Of a DNA stretch of 64,000 bases, positions 3,684-52,709 are shown piece after piece (position 1 is the first letter of the stretch; the number at the start of each line of letters is the position of its first letter). The DNA lies in assembly GCA_012026795.1 (NCBI GenBank), contig VEPM01000009.1, forward strand, positions 62,001 to 126,000, in the 5' to 3' direction. Both the position numbers and the translations under genes were made by a program. This stretch comes from Candidatus Methanoperedens sp. Lineage in GTDB: Archaea > Halobacteriota > Methanosarcinia > Methanosarcinales > Methanoperedenaceae. Under the pieces are notes generated by a model that was given only the letters and a program-made list of their open reading frames with translations, ran no database searches and was not told the DNA's origin.

Positions 3684-4694
3684 TTAGTGAATAATTTCAG
3701 CGTTTTTAAGTATCTCCGGATTGATAATTACACCTAACTTTTCTGCAATCTTCAGGTTCAGATAAAGTCTGCCTTTCTTGTTTGTAACTATCGGGATATC
3801 CGATGGGCGGGTACCGTTAAGAATACGCAAAGCTGCCATTGCTGACCATTCTCCCTGTTCCTCAGCTATTTTTGTCATACCTATTAACGAATAGGGTGGC
3901 ATCCAGTCCAGAGTTGCACCAGCAGGGATTTTTGTATTTTCCAGAACAAAGGCCTGAGCTTCATTATTGTCCCAGTCTGTTATCCCGGCGTTATTTTCAA
4001 GTATAACGATATCAACTTCTTCCTGAAGCTTCAGGAAATCCCTTTTCCATTCTTCAAACGTCGTAACATGATATTTCCTGGTGAAATTAATATTATATAA
4101 TTTCGTATAATATTCTGCATTCTTCCGGTCAGTAGTAGTATTTCCTGCAATAAACCCGATCCTATCACCCTTTGAATATTCCTTCAAATAAGAGATTAGC
4201 TGCGGGGTTAGACTTACTTCTATCATTCCGGCAGTATTTTCGTATGGTGCACCATAAATAGAAACATCCCAGTTTATACCACAGAAAACAACAGGCAGGG
4301 CTGCATCCCTGTAATAAGGCATTATCACATATTTGAAAGCAGGATCATCGCAAGTAATAACAACGTCAGGCTGAAAATCTTCAATAACAGATTTTGCTTT
4401 TATCCCTTCCTGTTTCCCGAAATCTTCAGAATCGTTTCTCTTGGTATCCATCCTGAAGATTTTAAGTTCAATGCCTGTATTATTAAGTATGTTCTCAATA
4501 CCTTTTGTCTCACCATCGCTCCATTCATAACCTGTATTATAGGAATCTATGTAAAGAATTTTTTTACCTTCAAAAGTTTTTGTGGACGCTTCATCGGCTT
4601 TGACATCTTTTGTGGAACTTCCAGTTGTCATGCAGCCAGAAAATATTGTTATCAAAATCATGCCAGCCAGTAACAGGGTTACTTTTTTTTTCAA
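3684..4694 (-). CDS. ABC-type substrate-binding lipoprotein (sensor partner candidate)
   Basis: 336 residues with a lipoprotein signal: a lysine-rich start, a hydrophobic stretch and a lipobox ending in FSGC (Cys near residue 21), then a Ser/Thr-rich linker. The mature part resembles the periplasmic-binding fold of the ABC_sub_bind family (YIDSYNTGYEW... and MDTKRN near the start). The start codon is TTG at 4692-4694, preceded by GAGGTAG at good spacing. No permease or ATPase gene is adjacent. Instead the gene abuts a histidine kinase 10 nt downstream, so I infer that it delivers a small ligand to that kinase rather than feeding a transporter. The ligand is not predictable. Confidence 0.75.
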   Translation of the reverse strand: MKKKVTLLLAGMILITIFSGCMTTGSSTKDVKADEASTKTFEGKKILYIDSYNTGYEWSDGETKGIENILNNTGIELKIFRMDTKRNDSEDFGKQEGIKAKSVIEDFQPDVVITCDDPAFKYVIMPYYRDAALPVVFCGINWDVSIYGAPYENTAGMIEVSLTPQLISYLKEYSKGDRIGFIAGNTTTDRKNAEYYTKLYNINFTRKYHVTTFEEWKRDFLKLQEEVDIVILENNAGITDWDNNEAQAFVLENTKIPAGATLDWMPPYSLIGMTKIAEEQGEWSAMAALRILNGTRPSDIPIVTNKKGRLYLNLKIAEKLGVIINPEILKNAEIIH

Positions 4695-4764
4695 AGTTTC
4701 TACCTCTATTTTCTATCGCCTGCGATGTTTCTGTTAATTGACATAATCATGAGCATGGAATTCC

Positions 4765-4785
4765 ATTCAATTATATAATAATCGT
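4765..4785 (-). promoter_or_regulatory. Candidate TATA box for lipoprotein/kinase operon
   Basis: In the 193-base gap upstream of the lipoprotein gene, an ATTATATAAT-like AT element sits about 75 bases before the TTG start on the minus strand. A second AT-rich element (TTATTTATAG on the minus strand) lies about 30 bases further upstream. No other structure was seen in this gap. The call rests only on resemblance to archaeal TATA boxes. Confidence 0.3.
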
Positions 4786-4887
4786 AATGATGATAATGTA
4801 CTATAAATAATTAACTCCCCACGGATGATGATTTCAATTAAAGGGAATGCATTTGTGATGCGGTCTCCCCATCCATATTACCATGTA

Positions 4888-7248
4888 TTATGATGTCCCT
4901 CTGAACTTAATTTGAAATTCTGTTCCATGATTTCGAATCAGGTTGATTTCACCATGTAGCTGGTTTTCTGTCAGTATAGTGACAAGGTGTAAACCCAATG
5001 ATTCGGTTTTTCTAAAATCCAGATCTTTCGGCAGACCAATGCCATTATCTCCGATCACAAGTTCGAACATTTCTTTATCCGTTTTATGTAATACTATCCC
5101 GATTTCGCCTTTTATATCTTCTGGAAATGCATATTTTAAAGAATTTGTGACCAGTTCATTGATTATCAGTCCGCAAGGAATGGCAAAATCAATATCCATT
5201 TGAATATTTTCAATGTTCATATCCAATGTTATTTTTCCAGAATTGGAATTATAAGACTGAAAAAGGTTAGCCGTCAGATCATTTATATAATCTTTGAAGT
5301 CTATTTTTGCCAGATCTCTGGATTGATAGAGTTTTTCATGGACAAGAGACATCGATGCTATCCTGTTCTGGCTTTCTGTAAAAATATCGATCACATTTTT
5401 ATCTTTGATATAATGGGTTTGATGTTCAAGAAGACTGGAAACAATTTGCATGTTGTTCTTGACGCGATGATGGATTTCTTTAAGAAGTGTTTCTTTTTCT
5501 TTCAGGGAGACTTCAATTTGTTTTTCTGCCAGCTTGCGGCGTTGATCGATCCTGTAAGCTTCTATAATATTTGCACATGTAGTCAAAAAAGGCTTCAGAT
5601 ACTCTATAATATCTTCATTATAATCCTCAGGGCAATTAGCAACACCAATCATGCCATTAAGTTTCCCTCCATGATAAAACGGTATACCTAAGAATTTATA
5701 AATCTGTGGATGCCCTTCAGGTAGACCTCCTCGCCTGGAATCTGTTGAAAGGTCATTGGCAATTACCGGTTTTCCATCTGTTATTACTGAACCGAATAGC
5801 GTTTTAAGATCATAGAACTCAATTCCTTGCGGAGCATTCTTTTCATAGAAATCTTGATTCTCTTTATTCCATGCAATGTTTGTGAATGCATGGATTTTTA
5901 AAAATGGATCATCTTTTGCAGTATAGAGGATCTCACCGATGAAACCGTATTCACTTTGGGTCAATGAAAGAACATTGCTTAAAATGTCATTAAGTGTAAT
6001 TTTTATATCTGAATCAACAATAAAATTATCCTGGACGTTTTTTATAGTATCCAGCAGGTTGCGGCTTTTGTTTAATGCTTCTTCTGTCTGCTTGCGCTTT
6101 GTGATGTCCCTTGCAATTTCAATACCTGCAATAATATTATCTGTTGAATCCTTTAAGGGGGAGGATGTTATTTCATAAAATAATTTCTGTCCATCCTTGA
6201 TCACAGACCTTTCTTCAATATGGATTTTACCATCCATAAATGTCATATTCACCGGGCAACCCTCACAAATGTGACCTTTGTGTTCATATTCCCTGTAACA
6301 ATATTTGCCCTTTTGGTCTCCTGTAACATCCTGATGTATCTTATTCTGGTATAACACCTTAAAATCAGTATCCTGGATACTGATCGCATCTCCAAGTGCA
6401 GCAATAATACTCTCTGTTTTGGCTTTTTCTTCTGCCATAGCCAGTTTTTCGTATGGTAGTTCTACAGATGATTTATATAAGTCAAGATAAAAATAAAAAA
6501 ATCCGGTAATTATTAGAAAATGCCCTGAGAATTCATAATCAAAGTAAACCAGATTACTGAAAAGTATTATGATAGAACCATTTGTTAAATTTAGAAAATT
6601 TTTCTGATTTGTTTCTCTAGCTCTTTTTATATAAAGATAGCAAGTGACTAAAGTAATAATTGTAATTACGGATAATAATATAGTTATAGTGGAATAACTA
6701 TCAAGTTTATATGCTGCAAAGATTAAATCCTCATGAAAGAAAACAGGTGCCGCTAAGATTAAATCCTCATGAAAGAAAACAGGTGCCGCTAAGATTGATA
6801 ATATTGCTATTATAAACAAGATCATTATATTTTTGTTAATCAATCCAGGAAGTGAATGATCATATATATATGCACTAAAAAGAAGTAAAATGGCCAGGAT
6901 GAGTCGGGATTCAATAAAGAAAATCCCTGCTTTATGGGATGAATTGGGATTGATGAAATCAGGCATAAAAGGATAGGAAAGTAGATGAAACAGGATTAAG
7001 ATCCCGGTAATAAGAAAAGTAGCGCCAAGTAAAAGAGAATGATTATCCTGGCTTTTATTATATGCATACCACGTTATGCCAAAAACAGAGATTGCCACAA
7101 ATACGGAAAATAACTCAGAAATTATCTCCAGGGGTTCTTCCAGTGATTTTATGTTATCCGATTCTGAAGAATCAATGGTTTCCTCAAGAAAAAACCCTAT
7201 CAAGAAAACTAACACTATTATTGCAAACAGTTTTAACGCATGTTTCAA
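4888..7248 (-). CDS. Membrane sensor histidine kinase, MASE3-PAS-GAF-HisKA_2-HATPase
   Basis: 786 residues. The N-terminal third is a multi-helix MASE3-like membrane sensor (motif ELFSVFVAISVFGITWYAY, then GILILFHLLSY). Next come a PAS domain with a cysteine cluster (KYCYREYEHKGHICEGCP), a DITKRK PAC tail, a GAF domain (about 400-570) and the HisKA_2 (EIHHRVKNN) / HATPase (NELVTNSLKYAF, GDNGIG) catalytic module. The PAS cysteines could hold a metal or sense redox; this is inference. The MASE3 region contains a perfect 12-residue tandem duplication (LAAPVFFHEDLI twice), discussed separately. The start is ATG with GAGGTAG rather far upstream. No response regulator is adjacent. Confidence 0.88.
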   Translation of the reverse strand: MKHALKLFAIIVLVFLIGFFLEETIDSSESDNIKSLEEPLEIISELFSVFVAISVFGITWYAYNKSQDNHSLLLGATFLITGILILFHLLSYPFMPDFINPNSSHKAGIFFIESRLILAILLLFSAYIYDHSLPGLINKNIMILFIIAILSILAAPVFFHEDLILAAPVFFHEDLIFAAYKLDSYSTITILLSVITIITLVTCYLYIKRARETNQKNFLNLTNGSIIILFSNLVYFDYEFSGHFLIITGFFYFYLDLYKSSVELPYEKLAMAEEKAKTESIIAALGDAISIQDTDFKVLYQNKIHQDVTGDQKGKYCYREYEHKGHICEGCPVNMTFMDGKIHIEERSVIKDGQKLFYEITSSPLKDSTDNIIAGIEIARDITKRKQTEEALNKSRNLLDTIKNVQDNFIVDSDIKITLNDILSNVLSLTQSEYGFIGEILYTAKDDPFLKIHAFTNIAWNKENQDFYEKNAPQGIEFYDLKTLFGSVITDGKPVIANDLSTDSRRGGLPEGHPQIYKFLGIPFYHGGKLNGMIGVANCPEDYNEDIIEYLKPFLTTCANIIEAYRIDQRRKLAEKQIEVSLKEKETLLKEIHHRVKNNMQIVSSLLEHQTHYIKDKNVIDIFTESQNRIASMSLVHEKLYQSRDLAKIDFKDYINDLTANLFQSYNSNSGKITLDMNIENIQMDIDFAIPCGLIINELVTNSLKYAFPEDIKGEIGIVLHKTDKEMFELVIGDNGIGLPKDLDFRKTESLGLHLVTILTENQLHGEINLIRNHGTEFQIKFRGTS
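6719..6790 (-). repeat. Perfect 36-bp tandem duplication inside the MASE3 kinase
   Basis: Two identical 36-bp units (6719-6754 and 6755-6790) are followed by the first six bases of a third (6791-6796). The length is a multiple of three, so the frame is kept and 12 residues are duplicated in a membrane-sensor loop or helix. Absolute identity means the event is recent, or the tract is a slippage-prone microduplication. Confidence 0.97.
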
Positions 7249-45685: not shown

Positions 45686-45694
45686 AAAAAAAAA
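45686..45694 (-). terminator. Poly-T terminator of tRNA-Cys
   Basis: On the minus strand nine T residues follow the tRNA 3' end directly. Archaeal RNA polymerase stops at such T runs. This also shows that CCA is not encoded. The first T may double as the discriminator base. Confidence 0.6.
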
Positions 45695-45765
45695 GCCAAG
45701 GTCCGGAGTCGAACCGGATTGTAATCGCTCTGCAGGCGATTGCGTAGCCGTTCCGCCACCTTGGC
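45694..45765 (-). tRNA. tRNA-Cys (GCA)
   Basis: On the minus strand GCCAAGG pairs with CCTTGGC (acceptor, 7 bp), ATCGC with GCGAT around the loop CTGCAGA (anticodon GCA), and TCCGG with CCGGA around TTCGACT (T arm). The D arm is GCGG-AACGGCTA-CGC. About 72 bases, no intron, CCA not encoded. Discriminator U73 is standard for tRNA-Cys. Confidence 0.95.
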
Positions 45766-45852
45766 AGGGGGAGTAACGCTACATATTCATAATAGATAAT
45801 AAGATTATCGCAATAGGCAATACTTTGTAGTTTTTAAATTCGAAGAACGCAA

Positions 45853-46986
45853 TTATGCCCCCAGGGCGCTCATGAACCTTTTCTTTATTTCATTAGCAGA
45901 AAAGGGAATCTCTTTACATCTGGCATTCACTGGTTTTACGATTACATGAATGAATTGTGCTTTGCGCCTCAGGGCTTCGCTTAGATCATCCTGGGAATGT
46001 GCTTTTACTGTATCATTTACCCCGCTTGCTTTTGCCAGCAGTTCAAGATCGATCAGGCTTTGTGTACATGTCTCCTGGTTGCCGGTTGAGCCGTATGATG
46101 CATTGTCAATAGCAATAACCGTGAGATTGTGCGGTGAATATTCGCCGATGCTGATCAGCGCATTTGGATTCATAAGCAGGCTGCCGTCCCCGTCAATCAC
46201 ATATACATGCTTCTTTTGAATGATCGCAAGCCCAAGACCTATTGATGAAACAAGCCCCATTGAACCAAGCATGTAAAAATTGAGTTCCCTGTCCTTTATC
46301 TCAAATAATTCCTTTGACGGGATGCCCAGGTTGGCGATGATAATATTATCGTCATTATTTTCACCGATCGTTCCTGCAATGGTCCTTATCGCTTCGTATC
46401 TTGTTAAAACCGGTTTTTGAATGGTTACACTGAATACCAGGTCAATATTCCTGCCGCATATATCCATGGGTTCAGGAACATCACTTGTTGAACCCTCCCA
46501 GACAGCAGGAGACACCAGAATAACATGCGGATGAAAGTTATCAAAGGATTCTTTGATCGCTTCATCCAATCTCCCGATTTCTTTTAGCGATTCTATGATC
46601 GTAAACTTCATCCCTGAGGCTGCCAGGATATCAGGCAACCTTCTCCCAAGCTGCCACTGCGCTTCTATCGATTCTTTATAAACACCTCGCCAGCTTGCGA
46701 TTATCGGAAGAGGGATGCTGTATGTAAGATTAAGTGAAAGAAGTGCATTTATCATGTTGCCGATGCCAGTGCTCTGGATGACCATGACAGGCCGCCCCCC
46801 GCCAAGATAAACGCCTGCGCATATCCCCACACCATTCTCTTCCCGCGTGAGAGGAAGCGTCTTTATGTTCCGGGCAACAAGTGGAAGAAGCGCCTTTATC
46901 CTGTCACATGGGAGTGTGGCTGCAATATCTACCCTGTTTTGTTTAAGAATATCGACAACTTTCTGTTCCGGGGTATCTGCATTCAT
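45853..46986 (-). CDS. comDE: Sulfopyruvate decarboxylase, fused alpha-beta (ComDE)
   Basis: 377 residues. Thiamine-diphosphate enzyme; the N-half carries the Glu-containing TREENGVGICAGVYLGG (alpha-type) and the C-half GDGSLLMNPNALISIGEYSPHNLTVIAIDN (TPP/Mg motif). It decarboxylates sulfopyruvate to sulfoacetaldehyde in coenzyme M synthesis. ComD and ComE are separate in some methanogens; fusion into one chain is the Methanosarcina layout. The cysteate synthase gene lies just upstream on the same strand, and the two fit one pathway. Confidence 0.92.
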   Translation of the reverse strand: MNADTPEQKVVDILKQNRVDIAATLPCDRIKALLPLVARNIKTLPLTREENGVGICAGVYLGGGRPVMVIQSTGIGNMINALLSLNLTYSIPLPIIASWRGVYKESIEAQWQLGRRLPDILAASGMKFTIIESLKEIGRLDEAIKESFDNFHPHVILVSPAVWEGSTSDVPEPMDICGRNIDLVFSVTIQKPVLTRYEAIRTIAGTIGENNDDNIIIANLGIPSKELFEIKDRELNFYMLGSMGLVSSIGLGLAIIQKKHVYVIDGDGSLLMNPNALISIGEYSPHNLTVIAIDNASYGSTGNQETCTQSLIDLELLAKASGVNDTVKAHSQDDLSEALRRKAQFIHVIVKPVNARCKEIPFSANEIKKRFMSALGA

Positions 46987-47034
46987 TTATATTTATCTGT
47001 GTTTTTATATCGGTGCAATTATGTTGATCCAATA

Positions 47035-48345
47035 TTAAATTATCTCTTCCAGGGGAACATTCGCATTCTCAGCATGTGCAGATGGTTCAATCTTATAAAG
47101 ATGATGATCCTGCTCAACACGTTTTACTCCGCCGCCAGTGATATTTAATACGATATAATCATCCTTTTTCACTTTTCCGGCATCTATCGCTTCGATCAAT
47201 GAGGCAACAGCAACTCCTGCAGGCGGGAAGATATCAATGCCTTCAAGATCTTCAAATAACGTTACACCGTTCTTTGCGTCGTTGTTGGAGATCGCATACA
47301 TGCTGCCATTCGTTGCACACAACGCATCATATACGCCTCCAGATGCTGAATATGGTGGTTCCCTGTTGGAAAGGATATCTGCATACATCTCATGAATGAG
47401 TTTTTTTGGCTCAGGCATATCAATATCTTTTATGATATCGCGCCGCCCTGCTTTCCATGCATTGTACATCGGTACAAATGGAAGGTTCTGGGAAAGATGA
47501 AGTTCGGGGAGAGCCGTACCAAATCTTCCGTCTTCAAGCAGTCTGAGTGCTGCTTCCCATGCGGCTATTCCTCCTGTTCCGCTTCCTATTGCCTGGAAAT
47601 AATGATCCGGAATCCGTTTCATAAAAACCGATGCATCAAGCATCACTGTTCCCATACCATCTCTTCGTGCCACGTTCCTTGCACCGCCTTCAGCCTGCAT
47701 ACCCGGAGCGGCGGAAAGTCTTTCTGCAAGATGGATGGAATCCGTATAGTCGCAGTTATTACCCATTTGTATAAAATGAATTGAATCAGTGGGCTCTTCC
47801 GGCAGCCACATTCTTGATATTCCGCTTCCGGGCACCACGATATAAACATTTACTCCAGTCATTGCAGACACGTGGGCAAAAGCCCGCGCCGTATTCCCGG
47901 CAGAAGCAAGGACAAGGGATTTACCTGAGTTCTTGAATTTTGATAGCGTTGGAAAAGCTTCCAGCTCCTTGAAGCTGCATGTTTTTATGTTTGCTCCCCT
48001 TTCAGGCCAGTAGCCGTTGAAACCGATGAAAAGATTCTTCAGGCCAAGATATTGTGCAAGTTCCGTGCTCCTGTATGTTACCGGGCCCGAATCAGTGGTG
48101 ATGAGTTCATTAACAGGCAGCCAGTCATGGAATTTTCCTATTCCGGGAGCATCTTTTAATTCAAGTTTTTTGTTCCTGTAATTTGTGCGCAGGAGGCCAT
48201 TGTCACAATCACATTTGAGGCGATCGTTAAAATAAGCGGTTTTGCAGCCTGTACATATAAGATCGTACTTCTGGTTCTCAGGTATTGTGATGGCAGGATT
48301 TTTGTCTAAAATGCTCCCACGGCACACGGTTTCACTTATTGTCAT
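47035..48345 (-). CDS. Cysteate synthase (PLP-dependent)
   Basis: About 436 residues, fold-type II PLP enzyme related to threonine synthase: the lysine lies in ANIKTCSFKELEA, the phosphate-binding loop in GSGTGGIAAWEAAL. It turns phosphoserine and sulfite into cysteate, the entry to coenzyme M in Methanosarcinales. An N-terminal zinc ribbon-like CTGC...CDC is present. Start is taken at ATG 48345 because a TATA box about 25-30 bases away puts the transcript start at that ATG (leaderless); the longer frame begins at 48360. Confidence 0.88.
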   Translation of the reverse strand: MTISETVCRGSILDKNPAITIPENQKYDLICTGCKTAYFNDRLKCDCDNGLLRTNYRNKKLELKDAPGIGKFHDWLPVNELITTDSGPVTYRSTELAQYLGLKNLFIGFNGYWPERGANIKTCSFKELEAFPTLSKFKNSGKSLVLASAGNTARAFAHVSAMTGVNVYIVVPGSGISRMWLPEEPTDSIHFIQMGNNCDYTDSIHLAERLSAAPGMQAEGGARNVARRDGMGTVMLDASVFMKRIPDHYFQAIGSGTGGIAAWEAALRLLEDGRFGTALPELHLSQNLPFVPMYNAWKAGRRDIIKDIDMPEPKKLIHEMYADILSNREPPYSASGGVYDALCATNGSMYAISNNDAKNGVTLFEDLEGIDIFPPAGVAVASLIEAIDAGKVKKDDYIVLNITGGGVKRVEQDHHLYKIEPSAHAENANVPLEEII

Positions 48346-48365
48346 AATTAATAGTTTCAATCGAT

Positions 48366-48462: not shown

Positions 48463-49083
48463 TTATATACTTATACCAATTATGCCATCTACCATGCCAG
48501 AACCACTTAATTTGTAAAAAGGCACTGCGATTACTTTCGGAGATGAAAGTCCAAGAGAATATGTAATATTTTTTAACATATCGGATTTCCCTGCTTCAAT
48601 GCTCAGGAAAATGAAATCAGCGATCTTTTCAGCATCTTTACTTGAACAGGAACATCCGTTCAGCTTGCCCTTTTTTATAACAGCGAACTCAGGCTGGCTC
48701 TTTGTGAATTCAAGCCCAAGTTTGCGGATATTTTCCAATGATGTCTCAAATGCAGGGACATAGAATTTTCCAACATGTTTATCTTCTTTGCCAAAAATAT
48801 TCATGATAAAACCGGTGATGCTTCCTGCTGCATCCCTTGAACTGATTTTGATATCTGCTTCAAAAACCCAGAAAGGCAAATATATTTTCCCGGTATCCAT
48901 ATTTTTATTCGGAACCGCAAAATCAATATTCACAGGAACAAGTTCGTCTTTTTCACTGATAAGTTCAAAACCTGAATCGCAATTGCCGCAATAATATACC
49001 ACGTCCCTGGTATCTGCATTTAGAAGCGACCCGCATTTTTTGCATTTTAAAGGTACTAATCTTAATCCTGAATGGTCAGTCAT
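48463..49083 (-). CDS. Zinc-ribbon protein of the SPFH-linked cluster (last gene)
   Basis: About 206 residues from ATG 49083, preferred because the preceding gene stops at 49088. N-terminal zinc ribbon CKKC...CGNC (about residues 14-36), then a beta-rich domain with YLPFWVFEADI, a phrase shared in kind with the two genes upstream. A membrane segment is not clear. It shares family character with 49088-50140 and 50137-50886, so the three are paralogues. Function unknown; it is the last gene of the operon. Confidence 0.75.
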   Translation of the reverse strand: MTDHSGLRLVPLKCKKCGSLLNADTRDVVYYCGNCDSGFELISEKDELVPVNIDFAVPNKNMDTGKIYLPFWVFEADIKISSRDAAGSITGFIMNIFGKEDKHVGKFYVPAFETSLENIRKLGLEFTKSQPEFAVIKKGKLNGCSCSSKDAEKIADFIFLSIEAGKSDMLKNITYSLGLSSPKVIAVPFYKLSGSGMVDGIIGISI

Positions 49084-49087
49084 TATC

Positions 49088-50140
49088 TCATCCCGGTGTA
49101 TTGTCAAAACCAATTTCTTTTAATGAATTGAAGGTCTCCTGAAGGCCCTTTGCCTTAAATCCTGTTGTCTTTCCTTCGATCACCTCGCCACCATACCTGA
49201 ATTTACTGAAACCAAAGATTATCAATGCAATACCTGCTATTGCACCCGCAATTATTAATTCATTTGATTCCTCAGAAAATAGCCGGAGCGATGTCGTAAG
49301 TATGAGGTTCCCTATCATCAGGCTTGCGACGAACATGCTAACCCTGTAAATGGTGCTTCCGGGTGCACGCCCATACAGAAGCTTGTTGTGAAGCCCATCA
49401 ATTACAAGCTGGTAATTCCTGTCTTTGAATTTATACCTGACAATCCAGAGAGGATAATAAATAATGGATAATTTTTTTCCTGTGGAGTGAAGTTTCTGGA
49501 AAGTAACTTCATCTATATCCACACTTCTTTTTGCCTGGTTTAACATCCAGTTTTCTGACTCTAAAACGGCATCTGTTCTTGAATGCATTGGCTCAAACAC
49601 CATTCCCTGTTTTTCAACTGTTGAGATATCAAAGGGTTCAAGGTTCCCGGAAATCCCTGAATTGTCTATTTCTTCAACGCCAAATTCGGAAACATCGCAG
49701 GCCGCTTTATTCCAGATATATTCTTTCATGATCATGCGTTCAACCGGCTCTTTTCTTGTAGTAGTGTGCATATTGCCTTTGTTGTCCCGGTGTGTCTCAT
49801 GATGTATCTTATTCCCGAAAATCCAGCCGCATACCTGGCCGATGGATCTCCAGAATGGCAGGTGGACAAGGAATATCTCAGTAAACTCGGCTCCTGTTCT
49901 CAGTTTCCTGTCCTTGTCGAATTTACCGAACCAGTTTTTTGCGGCGGCTTTTGTATCAGTTTCACTGACCTTGCTTTTTACATAATATTGTATCACGCCC
50001 TCATCGCCCATTACAAGAAGAGGTATCTCACAATACGTACATTTAAGGACATTATTTCCTTCCCTGAGCTCAACTGTTCCCCCGCAGCCAGGACACATTA
50101 GCCCCTTTATTATTTCATGCTTGCCTGATTCCATTTTCAT
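49088..50140 (-). CDS. Zinc-ribbon membrane protein, long paralogue
   Basis: 350 residues: N-terminal CPGCGG...CTYC zinc ribbon, a YYVKSKVSETDTKAAAKNWF segment (matching YMLKSTIDEVAAAASLRRWM in the gene upstream), a central domain with FLVHLPFWRS, two C-terminal membrane helices (SMFVASLMIGNLILT, LIIAGAIAGIALIIFGF) and a short tail. It overlaps the preceding gene by 4 bases and is followed after 4 bases by the next. Role unknown; the ribbon-plus-membrane layout suggests a sensor or scaffold at the membrane. Confidence 0.8.
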   Translation of the reverse strand: MKMESGKHEIIKGLMCPGCGGTVELREGNNVLKCTYCEIPLLVMGDEGVIQYYVKSKVSETDTKAAAKNWFGKFDKDRKLRTGAEFTEIFLVHLPFWRSIGQVCGWIFGNKIHHETHRDNKGNMHTTTRKEPVERMIMKEYIWNKAACDVSEFGVEEIDNSGISGNLEPFDISTVEKQGMVFEPMHSRTDAVLESENWMLNQAKRSVDIDEVTFQKLHSTGKKLSIIYYPLWIVRYKFKDRNYQLVIDGLHNKLLYGRAPGSTIYRVSMFVASLMIGNLILTTSLRLFSEESNELIIAGAIAGIALIIFGFSKFRYGGEVIEGKTTGFKAKGLQETFNSLKEIGFDNTPG

Positions 50141-50886
50141 ACCCTCTCAGCAACGAATACTGCTGCAATAACAACAATTATTGCAGTTATTATGTATGCT
50201 CCCAGCACCTGTGGAAAATCCATTGACATACCTTCAAGGAAAAATATTATTGCGGCTCCGCCTCCAACCAGAAAATAAGGCATCTCCTGTTTGGATGGGT
50301 ATTCCGAAGCCATGATCTTGCCTGATGAGCCATCCACTATGGCTGTGTATGCATTTTTTTTGTAATTATAATGAAAAATATATAGAGGTATATGGACAAG
50401 AGCGCTCTGGGTGATATTGGACACATCTACAGCTTCTTTTTTCAGCCATTCCACTGCTGATAAGTATAACACAGTAGGATCTTTTATGACCGGGTTACCT
50501 GCATCTTCCTGTCCATAGAACCTAAAATCTCCTGCAGGAATAACCATTGTTCTTATTCCAGGCAATGGGGCAGGTAATGCCGGTTGTATCTTTATTACCT
50601 CTTTTTCCCCCTGTTTTATCTTGAAATACCATATCGGAAAATATACATATTCTTTTCCTGATATCGCTGCTTCCTTATCCAGACCTTTCACAGTGGAACT
50701 TCCCGCCATCCAGCGCCGAAGCGATGCGGCGGCTGCAACCTCGTCAATAGTGGATTTTAGCATATAATGGAATACAATTTTGCTTTTATCAATGTAAATG
50801 GCAGATGAACAATATTCACACGTTAAAAATGTCTGGCCTTCTATGGCTTTGACATCTGCGCCGCATTGAGGACATTTTATTTCCAT
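50137..50886 (-). CDS. Zinc-ribbon membrane protein
   Basis: 249 residues: zinc ribbon CPQCGAD...CEYCSSAI at the N-terminus (about 4-27), a middle YFPIWYFKIKQGEKEVIKI domain, and two C-terminal hydrophobic segments. It overlaps the next gene by 4 bases and starts 22 bases after the SPFH gene stop. It is a shorter paralogue of the product of 49088-50140. It resembles the zinc-ribbon partner (YdjG-like) of bacterial YdjI-type stress operons. Confidence 0.8.
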   Translation of the reverse strand: MEIKCPQCGADVKAIEGQTFLTCEYCSSAIYIDKSKIVFHYMLKSTIDEVAAAASLRRWMAGSSTVKGLDKEAAISGKEYVYFPIWYFKIKQGEKEVIKIQPALPAPLPGIRTMVIPAGDFRFYGQEDAGNPVIKDPTVLYLSAVEWLKKEAVDVSNITQSALVHIPLYIFHYNYKKNAYTAIVDGSSGKIMASEYPSKQEMPYFLVGGGAAIIFFLEGMSMDFPQVLGAYIITAIIVVIAAVFVAERV

Positions 50887-50908
50887 TACTGCCTTCCTCC
50901 TGCTCTTC

Positions 50909-52087
50909 CTATTCTATCTTTGTGCCGCATGATGGGCAGAACTTAGCCCCTGGTGCAAGCTCGGCGTTGCATTTCGGACAATTTGAGATAATTTTATATC
51001 CGCAGCCAGGACAGAATTTTGAACCGGCCGGAATATCTGCTTTACATTTCGGGCATGATATGCCTCCTCCGATCTTGTTTCCGCAATTAGTGCAGAATTT
51101 AGAACCTGAAGGTAAGTCAGCGCCGCATGAGGGGCATTTTATTCCATTTGGGCGCGCTTGCTGTTGTTGCGGCTGCATAGTTTGCCCCAGCTGGGAAGCC
51201 ATCATCATTCCCATTCCCATGCCGGCCCCCAGCCCGACACCAGCCCCTGCCCCGGCGCCTGCTGCCCCGCCTTCCTGTTTTGCAGCATCCCGCATGGCAC
51301 TTCCAGCCTGGAAAGCAAGAAATGCTTCCTTCTGTCTCTGGTCTGTTAAACCAAGTGCGCCTATGCCAGAGCGCGTATCAATGGCTTTCTGGACTTCTTC
51401 TGGGAGGTTGATGTTAAGTTCTGCGATACGCATGACCTTTAGCCCGTACTCAGCCACGTTTGTCTCAACCTTTGAAAGTAGCATCTGTGAGATTTCTTCA
51501 AGATATGCAGGTATATCTAAGACTGATAATTGTTTTTTAGACTTGAGCTCACCGAGGGTATCATTGAGCTGCATGATTATCTCGCCCTTTAGCCAGCCCA
51601 CTACCTGGTCGCTGTCGCTAAATCCTTTTGTGCCCACAAACTGGGTAATGAACTGTATGGGGTTAACAACTTTATAAGCGAACTGCCCGAAAATCCTAAG
51701 CCTGACAATCCCGAAATCCTGGTCCCTGAATACCATTGGTTCGGCACTTCCGAATTTACTTCTCAGTTCCCTGCGCTGGACGTAATATGCTTCAGCTACA
51801 GGCTGGGTACCAGTTACTATTCTCTGGAGTTCTGTAAGTACGGGAATATTAAGTGTTGAGAGCCCGAACCTGCCCGGGCGGTCAAGTACTGTAAGTATTT
51901 TCCCATCCCTGAGGAAAACCGCATACTCATCTTCCCTGACAACTACATTATCATTCCAGATAAGGTTCCTTGGTATCCTGAATATTACATTTTCGCCTTT
52001 TGCCGCATCATCCCACATTAAAGTGGTAGAGCCAAGGATACTTCCACCTGAACCCGATGTTGTTGGGGTTTTTTTATCAAATAACAT
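50909..52087 (-). CDS. SPFH-domain (YdjI/virion-core-like) protein with triple zinc ribbon tail
   Basis: 392 residues. SPFH/band-7-like core (about 20-250; NLIWNDNVVVREDEYAVFLRDG, PVAEAYYVQRRE, then LNINLPEEVQKAIDTRSG), a Gly/Ala/Met/Gln-rich linker (about 265-305) and three double-CxxC ribbons in the last 85 residues: CPSC..CTNC, CPKC..CPGC, CPKC..CPSC. Bacillus YdjI-type proteins show the same layout and form membrane scaffolds under stress. It is preceded without gap by a coiled-coil gene and followed by the zinc-ribbon genes. Confidence 0.88.
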   Translation of the reverse strand: MLFDKKTPTTSGSGGSILGSTTLMWDDAAKGENVIFRIPRNLIWNDNVVVREDEYAVFLRDGKILTVLDRPGRFGLSTLNIPVLTELQRIVTGTQPVAEAYYVQRRELRSKFGSAEPMVFRDQDFGIVRLRIFGQFAYKVVNPIQFITQFVGTKGFSDSDQVVGWLKGEIIMQLNDTLGELKSKKQLSVLDIPAYLEEISQMLLSKVETNVAEYGLKVMRIAELNINLPEEVQKAIDTRSGIGALGLTDQRQKEAFLAFQAGSAMRDAAKQEGGAAGAGAGAGVGLGAGMGMGMMMASQLGQTMQPQQQQARPNGIKCPSCGADLPSGSKFCTNCGNKIGGGISCPKCKADIPAGSKFCPGCGYKIISNCPKCNAELAPGAKFCPSCGTKIE

Positions 52088-52618
52088 CTAACTTACCTCC
52101 AGCCCTGTAATTATAGAAATCCTCTTATCGAATATCAAATTAAAATCCTTCAATGCTTTTATTATTTCTTTCATTTTCTGCCCTGATGTACCATCAGAGC
52201 TTATTATGGAACTATTGAGTTCGTCCGCTGTTTTCCCGATAAAATCTATATTTTGAAGAAGAGAAAGGTCCCATTCATACATTTTATTGAGTTCTTCTTC
52301 TTCTATCCGGATATCTGCTGATACTCCTGAATATCCCTGCTCTGTATGCCGTATCTTATTTTCTATCTGTCTTGATAATTTCAATACATCACCTATATCC
52401 GAGACGAGCTCAAGTTCCAGGGCTCTTGTCAGCTCTTCCCTGCAATTCTCAAACTTTCTATTTATCTCACCCATACGCCTGGCAAGCTGTTGTCTTAGCA
52501 GGCTATCTGCGGCCCGCAAATCCTCACGCCGGCGGTATCCTTTAAAACCGGGTATGAAAAGCTCGATCTTTTTCAATAGTCCCCTATCTGCCTCAACTCG
52601 TGTTCGAAGGTCTGTCAT
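52088..52618 (-). CDS. Coiled-coil protein, first gene of SPFH operon
   Basis: 176 residues, almost all helical with heptads (RREDLRAADSLLRQQLARRMGEINRKFENC; VLKLSRQIENKIRHTEQG). No membrane segment. It ends right where the SPFH gene begins, so the two are translated together. It fits the position of PspA-like partners in YdjI-type operons, though similarity to PspA is not clear. Role suggested: membrane-stress scaffold partner. Confidence 0.75.
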   Translation of the reverse strand: MTDLRTRVEADRGLLKKIELFIPGFKGYRRREDLRAADSLLRQQLARRMGEINRKFENCREELTRALELELVSDIGDVLKLSRQIENKIRHTEQGYSGVSADIRIEEEELNKMYEWDLSLLQNIDFIGKTADELNSSIISSDGTSGQKMKEIIKALKDFNLIFDKRISIITGLEVS

Positions 52619-52709
52619 TTTTTCACTCTTTTAAAATTTTATAATGTTTTCCAAAATTTTGACTGTGAATTATTTCATTGTAATTAAATGTTTGTGTAAT
52701 GAAACTTTC

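Follow-up and report, generated by a model that had tools for sequence, protein, structure and literature searches.

The window analysed here, a stretch of 64,000 nucleotides (nt) from the methane-oxidising archaeon Candidatus Methanoperedens sp. (assembly GCA_012026795.1, contig VEPM01000009.1, positions 62,001-126,000 of the forward strand), carries on its minus strand, from 52618 to 48463, five genes in the order CC, SPFH, Z3, Z2, Z1 that stay linked in relatives while the flanking genes vary. We give about an even chance to the reading that their products form one membrane-associated assembly working like the PspA-YdjGHI system of Bacillus, but without PspA. A sequence-only reading had placed five genes here, and all five open reading frames (ORFs) were found:

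CC, 52088-52618, minus strand: ORF for a helical protein of 176 amino acids (aa).
SPFH, 50909-52087, minus strand: 392 aa, with a Band_7_1 domain (PF13421) and C-terminal zinc ribbons.
Z3, 50137-50886, minus strand: ORF, with a 25-row alignment, for 249 aa with an N-terminal zinc ribbon, a domain predicted to be cytosolic and a predicted C-terminal two-helix membrane hairpin.
Z2, 49088-50140, minus strand: 350-aa paralogue of Z3 with a predicted membrane hairpin (26-row alignment).
Z1, 48463-49083, minus strand: 206-aa paralogue predicted to be soluble, starting at the ATG at 49083 (26-row alignment).
Gap before CC, 52619-52709, minus strand: 91 base pairs (bp), AT-rich in the sequence.

The genes occur together and travel as a unit. 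First, a sample of 40 genomes (that of the window, G000, and 39 relatives) was searched separately for PF13421, Z3 and CC. Full-length PF13421 matches (E<1e-30) are found in G000, G002, G008, G011, G012, G018, G020 and G024; Z3 is present in exactly these eight genomes (the own genome and 7 of the 39 relatives), and CC in all eight, plus a diverged lone copy in G006. Weak, short PF13421 matches elsewhere (E 1e-7 or worse, fewer than 90 positions) stem from different SPFH genes and were left uncounted. Two random draws of 7 from 39 would coincide about once in 1.5e7, shared ancestry being ignored in this figure. Second, in a sample of the phylum, which we take to be Halobacteriota, CC occurs in 24 of 392 genomes, and 26 of its 29 match places were fetched (not fetched were the match in the own genome, the weak one in G060 and a fragment of 33 aa in G246). 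SPFH lies next to CC on the same strand in 22 of these 26 loci, and 17 hold all five genes, always with Z3-Z2-Z1 intact; one (L134) has CC-SPFH with a single Z gene. The remaining four comprise two loci without SPFH (L155, L156), one with a broken CC (L154) and one whose SPFH-like ORF is not within 300 bp (L157). Third, the order CC-SPFH-Z3-Z2-Z1 is seen in eight loci (L132, L133, L135-L138, L150, L151) and Z3-Z2-Z1-CC-SPFH in nine (L139-L142, L144, L147, L149, L152, L153), which indicates two blocks that were rearranged yet remained together. The module is thus not scattered in relatives, by co-occurrence or by synteny, and its ribbon paralogues, which the sequence-only reading had called expanded, are an old and fixed trio and no local expansion.

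The same reading had described the genes as tightly packed with overlaps. The packing stands, with gaps of 0 nt (CC/SPFH), 22 nt (SPFH/Z3), -4 nt (Z3/Z2) and 4 nt (Z2/Z1), but there is a single true overlap, that of the Z2 start with the Z3 stop (ATGA, 4 nt). The last gap holds if Z1 begins at the ATG at 49083, a start backed by the orthologue alignment; the TTG start at 49113 listed for Z1 was rejected as too far upstream by this alignment. Across aligned loci, the Z3-Z2 gap ranges from -17 to 3 nt (25 loci) and that between Z2 and Z1 from -62 to 12 nt (26 loci), and the largest overlaps may reflect the start-codon choice of a mechanical ORF caller. Upstream, only the 91-bp stretch before CC offers enough room for a promoter of the operon, and it is a putative site for one.

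The SPFH protein matches Band_7_1 at E 3.8e-41 over residues 46-242, has a Gly/Met/Gln-rich linker, and ends in three double-CxxC zinc ribbons (residues 315-392, Pfam), as the sequence-only reading had it. It has no membrane helix by hydropathy, and there is no 19-residue hydrophobic window in its orthologue, 97% identical, from Methanoperedens sp. BLZ2 (L004, the same locus as L195). It is the only PF13421 gene of its genome, where the generic Band_7 model finds two further SPFH genes; PF13421 also matches in the B. subtilis control genome. The combination of an SPFH domain, no membrane helix, a low-complexity stretch and a C-terminal zinc finger makes it an SPFH protein of the YdjI type. YdjI of B. 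subtilis is described as having a C-terminal zinc finger and no membrane anchor and as needing YdjG and YdjH for its localisation, since deleting either ydjG or ydjH abolishes the membrane foci of YdjI and PspA (PMC8581546).

Candidates for the corresponding anchors are Z3 and Z2. A CxxC...CxxC ribbon is complete in all 25 aligned orthologues of Z3, all 26 of Z2 and 24 of 26 of Z1; a diverged five-gene version with an incomplete Z1 ribbon (L150, L151) is a further locus in a genome of family f19 and is also found in a same-order genome of family f5. Pfam finds weak generic ribbons or nothing in the three proteins, and no further family. Profile comparisons of Z2 with Z3 (probability 99.8%, E 1.6e-29) and of Z2 with Z1 (97.8%, E 7.5e-13) identify the three as mutual homologues over most of their length. 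With membrane segments called at a hydropathy threshold of 1.3, at least two are predicted in 24 of 26 rows of Z2 and in all 25 of Z3, and none in 25 of 26 rows of Z1; in the window, there are two hydrophobic segments at the C-terminus of Z3 and of Z2 and none in Z1, which bears out the earlier description of three paralogous ribbon proteins, two of them with membrane helices. The loops between the helices of the window's Z2 and Z3, read by eye, are short and net acidic, with basic residues after the last helix, and this fits a topology with ribbon and C-terminus inside. In the structural model of Z2 (predicted local distance difference test, pLDDT, 77.4), an alpha/beta domain with long strands precedes two helices. 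Its top Foldseek matches, pore-forming toxins with a template modelling (TM) score of about 0.1 and a root-mean-square deviation (rmsd) above 20, were discarded as meaningless. The best VIA match, the lipoprotein 4exr (Z 6.3, rmsd 2.3 over 63 residues), is under the trust level, and no fold is assigned to Z2; we take 4exr to be a PepSY-type protein, and PepSY did not turn up in the Pfam scan of Z2.

These features suggest a mechanism for the assembly. This would involve 1) Z3 and Z2 anchored in the membrane by their C-terminal two-helix hairpins, their ribbons and domains facing the cytosol; 2) recruitment of SPFH by Z2 and Z3 through ribbon or domain contacts; 3) oligomerisation of SPFH, which lacks a membrane helix of its own, into a scaffold; 4) Z1 as a soluble adaptor of the same family; 5) CC as a peripheral effector in the operon slot held by PspA in Bacillus; and 6) the marking, stabilising or remodelling of stressed membrane patches by the whole. 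The data show the anatomy of the genes, the homology of Z1-Z3, the co-occurrence and linkage of the set and its independence of PspA; the topology of the proteins, their contacts, the role of CC and a part in membrane stress are inferred. The ribbons also admit a regulatory system, with nucleic acid bound by the ribbons and with membrane-tethered Z proteins that would sense the envelope and control transcription, in line with the suggestion of Popp et al. that the zinc ribbon of YdjG has a DNA-binding, regulatory role (PMC9239133). We regard this as improbable, because none of the five proteins has a DNA-binding domain beyond the short ribbons, and protein-protein contact would explain ribbons in three proteins and in the SPFH tail no less well.

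The sequence-only reading took CC for a coiled coil; in the AlphaFold2 model (pLDDT 85.8, predicted TM score 0.82), a helix at residues 4-21 and a conserved IPGFxGYxxxED turn are followed by four helices within 31-172, taken as a bundle from the structural matches of the model, so that the protein is predicted to be a compact four-helix bundle behind a short N-terminal helix. The 35 members of its alignment, the others being 15-92% identical to the window copy, share five invariant residues (P23, Y28, D38, D117, R166). Its sole curated relative is the LIMLP_15305 family of Leptospira (NF047596), which 33 of the 35 members match at E 0.01 or better and which has no match in 14 control genomes. 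The window copy reaches E 6.8e-15 and 55.4 bits, far under the family cut-off of 210 bits, and does not count as a member of this equivalog; the one paper found, PMC7567364, names LIMLP_15305 solely in a table row on non-coding RNAs. A PDB sequence search returned weak helical matches only (best E 0.0066), Foldseek nothing at E<=0.001, and VIA placed IncA first (Z 15.3, rmsd 2.6, 142 aligned residues), then a V-ATPase c-ring subunit (Z 12.6) and designed bundles. The usual background for helical models is a best Z of about 14, which IncA barely exceeds, so we claim neither kinship nor a fold family for CC.

One might suspect CC of being PspA in disguise. This was rejected at sequence level, since a profile comparison gave a probability of 0.9% (for PspA, a size rule left 14 sequences of those found in the PspA search, one of which, L186, is below the family cut-off). 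A related alternative is ESCRT-like sorting, with CC as a highly derived protein of the ESCRT-III/PspA superfamily and SPFH as cargo adaptor. Here the helical model with its N-terminal helix is in agreement, and so are the Meth_adaptin ESCRT loci of Makarova et al., which are described as holding an SPFH protein with a coiled coil and a zinc ribbon (PMC10936438), a likeness taken from the description. However, the low profile probability speaks against it, the Vps4 and adaptin-like parts of those loci are not among the five proteins, Pfam finds no ATPase in them (no search aimed at Vps4 was made), and no PspA or ESCRT-III chain is among the matches listed in the structure comparison of CC, a result that leaves room for kinship. 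We consider this alternative very unlikely.

The sequence-only reading had noted no obvious PspA. This is correct for the operon, since none of the five proteins matches PspA in Pfam, and incorrect for the genome, which has two PspA genes, both on other contigs, in agreement with the account of BLZ2 by Popp et al. (PMC9239133). PspA was counted across 26 genomes that carry the CC-SPFH pair (the phylum sample supplies 20 of them, including G008 and G024; the others are G000, G002, G011, G012, G018 and G020, the CC of G011 being split by a contig end). It is over the family cut-off in ten and absent at this level in 16, of which 15 have no match and G002 has one below the cut-off; G011 and G177 are only 87% complete. 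The search took in 29 genomes, and G006, G228 and G388 were not counted. With 16 of 26 genomes lacking it, the module does not depend on PspA.

The module resembles the Bacillus Ydj operon, as the sequence-only reading had proposed: like pspA-ydjGHI, this is a small operon that couples a soluble YdjI-type SPFH protein with a zinc finger to ribbon/transmembrane partners (PMC8581546, PMC11237479), here with predicted hairpins. YdjG itself is described as zinc ribbons, a YpeB-related NTF2-like domain and a membrane segment; Z2 and Z3 have a ribbon and a predicted membrane hairpin, and the domain of Z2 gave only the VIA match under the trust level. The differences are that the operon has neither PspA nor a TPM-domain protein (at E<=1, none of the five proteins matches TPM_phosphatase, the YdjH domain), that three homologous ribbon proteins take the place of YdjG and YdjH, that CC is a distinct family, and that many of the genomes have no PspA. 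The module is not a member of the PspA-YdjGHI system. Nor does it contain the NfeD partner of SPFH1/SPFH2 proteins of stomatin or flotillin type, for which none of the five matches at E<=1 (Pfam, NCBIfam). Ravi et al. cover the ydj operon, band-7/PspA contexts and PspA-free band-7 operons of flotillin/YuaF type in bacteria and archaea (PMC11237479). In the open-licence literature searched, we found no description of the CC-SPFH-Z3-Z2-Z1 set, and nothing on the module under PF13421, Band_7_1, COG4260 or SPFH proteins of Methanoperedens. By analogy, it appears to be a PspA-free variant resembling known Ydj-type membrane systems, whose function would follow theirs.

The sequence-only reading further raised a distinct membrane-stress or domain-organising system in an archaeon with ether-lipid membranes; the set is particular neither to this archaeon nor to such membranes. 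An SPFH scan gave 216 relatives, and CC occurs in 34 of the 80 that were retained, among them Thermoplasmata, Thaumarchaeota, Planctomycetota, Chloroflexota, Acidobacteriota and others. In Thermoplasmata and Thaumarchaeota, homologous CC, SPFH and ribbon genes lie side by side, in most cases with a single ribbon protein (304-345 aa) in place of three. An actinobacterial contig of Gaiellales (L034) has the full set in the order Z3-Z2-Z1-CC-SPFH, with best Z matches at 8.7e-10, 7.4e-23 and 2.1e-16, Z1 having been hidden there by the gene caller. In a quick SPFH tree, in which L150 and L059 sit on very long branches, all bacterial rows group together (support 100, branch 1.5), L034 among them, so that a recent transfer of its five genes from archaea seems unlikely. 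Desulfobulbaceae (L042, L046, L053 and others) have, in conserved order, a homologous SPFH gene and genes for a double-ribbon protein of about 415 aa beside it, a protein of about 170 aa and a ribbon protein of about 340 aa; their SPFH loci give no CC match. Overall, 110 loci were examined (one locus enters twice, as L008 and L132), with 58 CC genes (E<1e-8), 54 of which have an SPFH gene no more than 300 bp away on their own strand; 24 of these pairs have three Z genes and 14 have one within 4 kb. Most of the 110 loci were chosen by SPFH similarity, and only the 26 picked by CC are a fair test of linkage.

Several points weigh against a single assembly of the kind proposed. First, the other 16 of these 54 pairs have no Z gene within 4 kb, and among the loci picked by CC there are four with CC-SPFH and no Z gene in the fetched stretch (L143, L145, L146, L148), which means that the anchors are not always local. 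Second, the CC of G006 is found without a full SPFH or Z3. Third, the modelled bundle of CC has no clear PDB relative, IncA at VIA Z 15.3 being the best. Fourth, the hydrophobic moment at its N-terminus is modest (0.14-0.31 for windows starting at residues 1-13), so membrane binding by CC is weakly backed. A platform for the quality control or assembly of membrane proteins would use the same parts differently, with a chaperone-like ring of SPFH and ribbons, Z proteins as client or assembly factors, and no special link to stress. Such a role agrees with the argument of Ravi et al. that PspA's band-7 partners help to assemble membrane-linked complexes in a chaperone-like way (PMC11237479) and with the ties of several SPFH subfamilies to FtsH (PMC2636767); on the other hand, none of the five proteins matches FtsH or NfeD, and the sole recurrent extra gene beside archaeal modules encodes a membrane protein without a known family (neighbours were clustered, and not all annotated). 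We hold this alternative to be rather unlikely.

That recurrent neighbour, of about 115 aa with four predicted membrane helices and no Pfam family, adjoins CC in 14 archaeal loci (L139 at 4645-4989, L144, L147, L151 and ten others). As a sixth core gene it was rejected, because 12 genomes of families f1, f2 and f14 (Methanoperedens and f14) were tested and all lack it. A diverged second CC without SPFH (L155:8152-8691, L156:8172-8696) lies beside a many-helix membrane protein of about 400-450 aa, a relative of which is also near CC in L021, L133 and L154. Directly downstream of the module, window positions 45694-48360 hold cysteate synthase (TIGR03844, 3.7e-180), a fused alpha-beta sulfopyruvate decarboxylase and, after this enzyme pair of the coenzyme M pathway, a tRNA-Cys (45694-45765). 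Cysteate synthase follows the module in BLZ2 and FeB_1 only, the pair being limited here to the two closest relatives, and no other Methanoperedens-type locus that was checked has the upstream dpp genes next to the module. Changing flanks around a preserved block, together with a patchy occurrence (7 of 39 relatives), could also mark an anti-virus defence or conflict module, which we judge very unlikely: PADLOC-DB yields two weak matches only, both at the Z3 ribbon (E 0.047 and 0.058), and Pfam assigns no domain of nuclease, NTPase or toxin type to the five proteins.

Popp et al. report that more than half of 915 archaeal genomes are without any Psp domain (PMC9239133), which leaves open how such archaea handle membrane stress. 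The module is kept as a block, occurs in archaea without PspA, and is small enough to be deleted or expressed as a unit. It also supplies YdjI-type SPFH proteins with a fixed set of partners; in the literature consulted, the way such proteins are anchored has been established in one bacterium. Going further, the module might be an ancient, PspA-independent machine for membrane maintenance in archaea and bacteria, in which the predicted four-helix-bundle family of CC replaces PspA as effector; we advance this tentatively, as possible but doubtful. If it were true, methanogens without PspA would rely on the CC-SPFH-Z module to cope with envelope stress.

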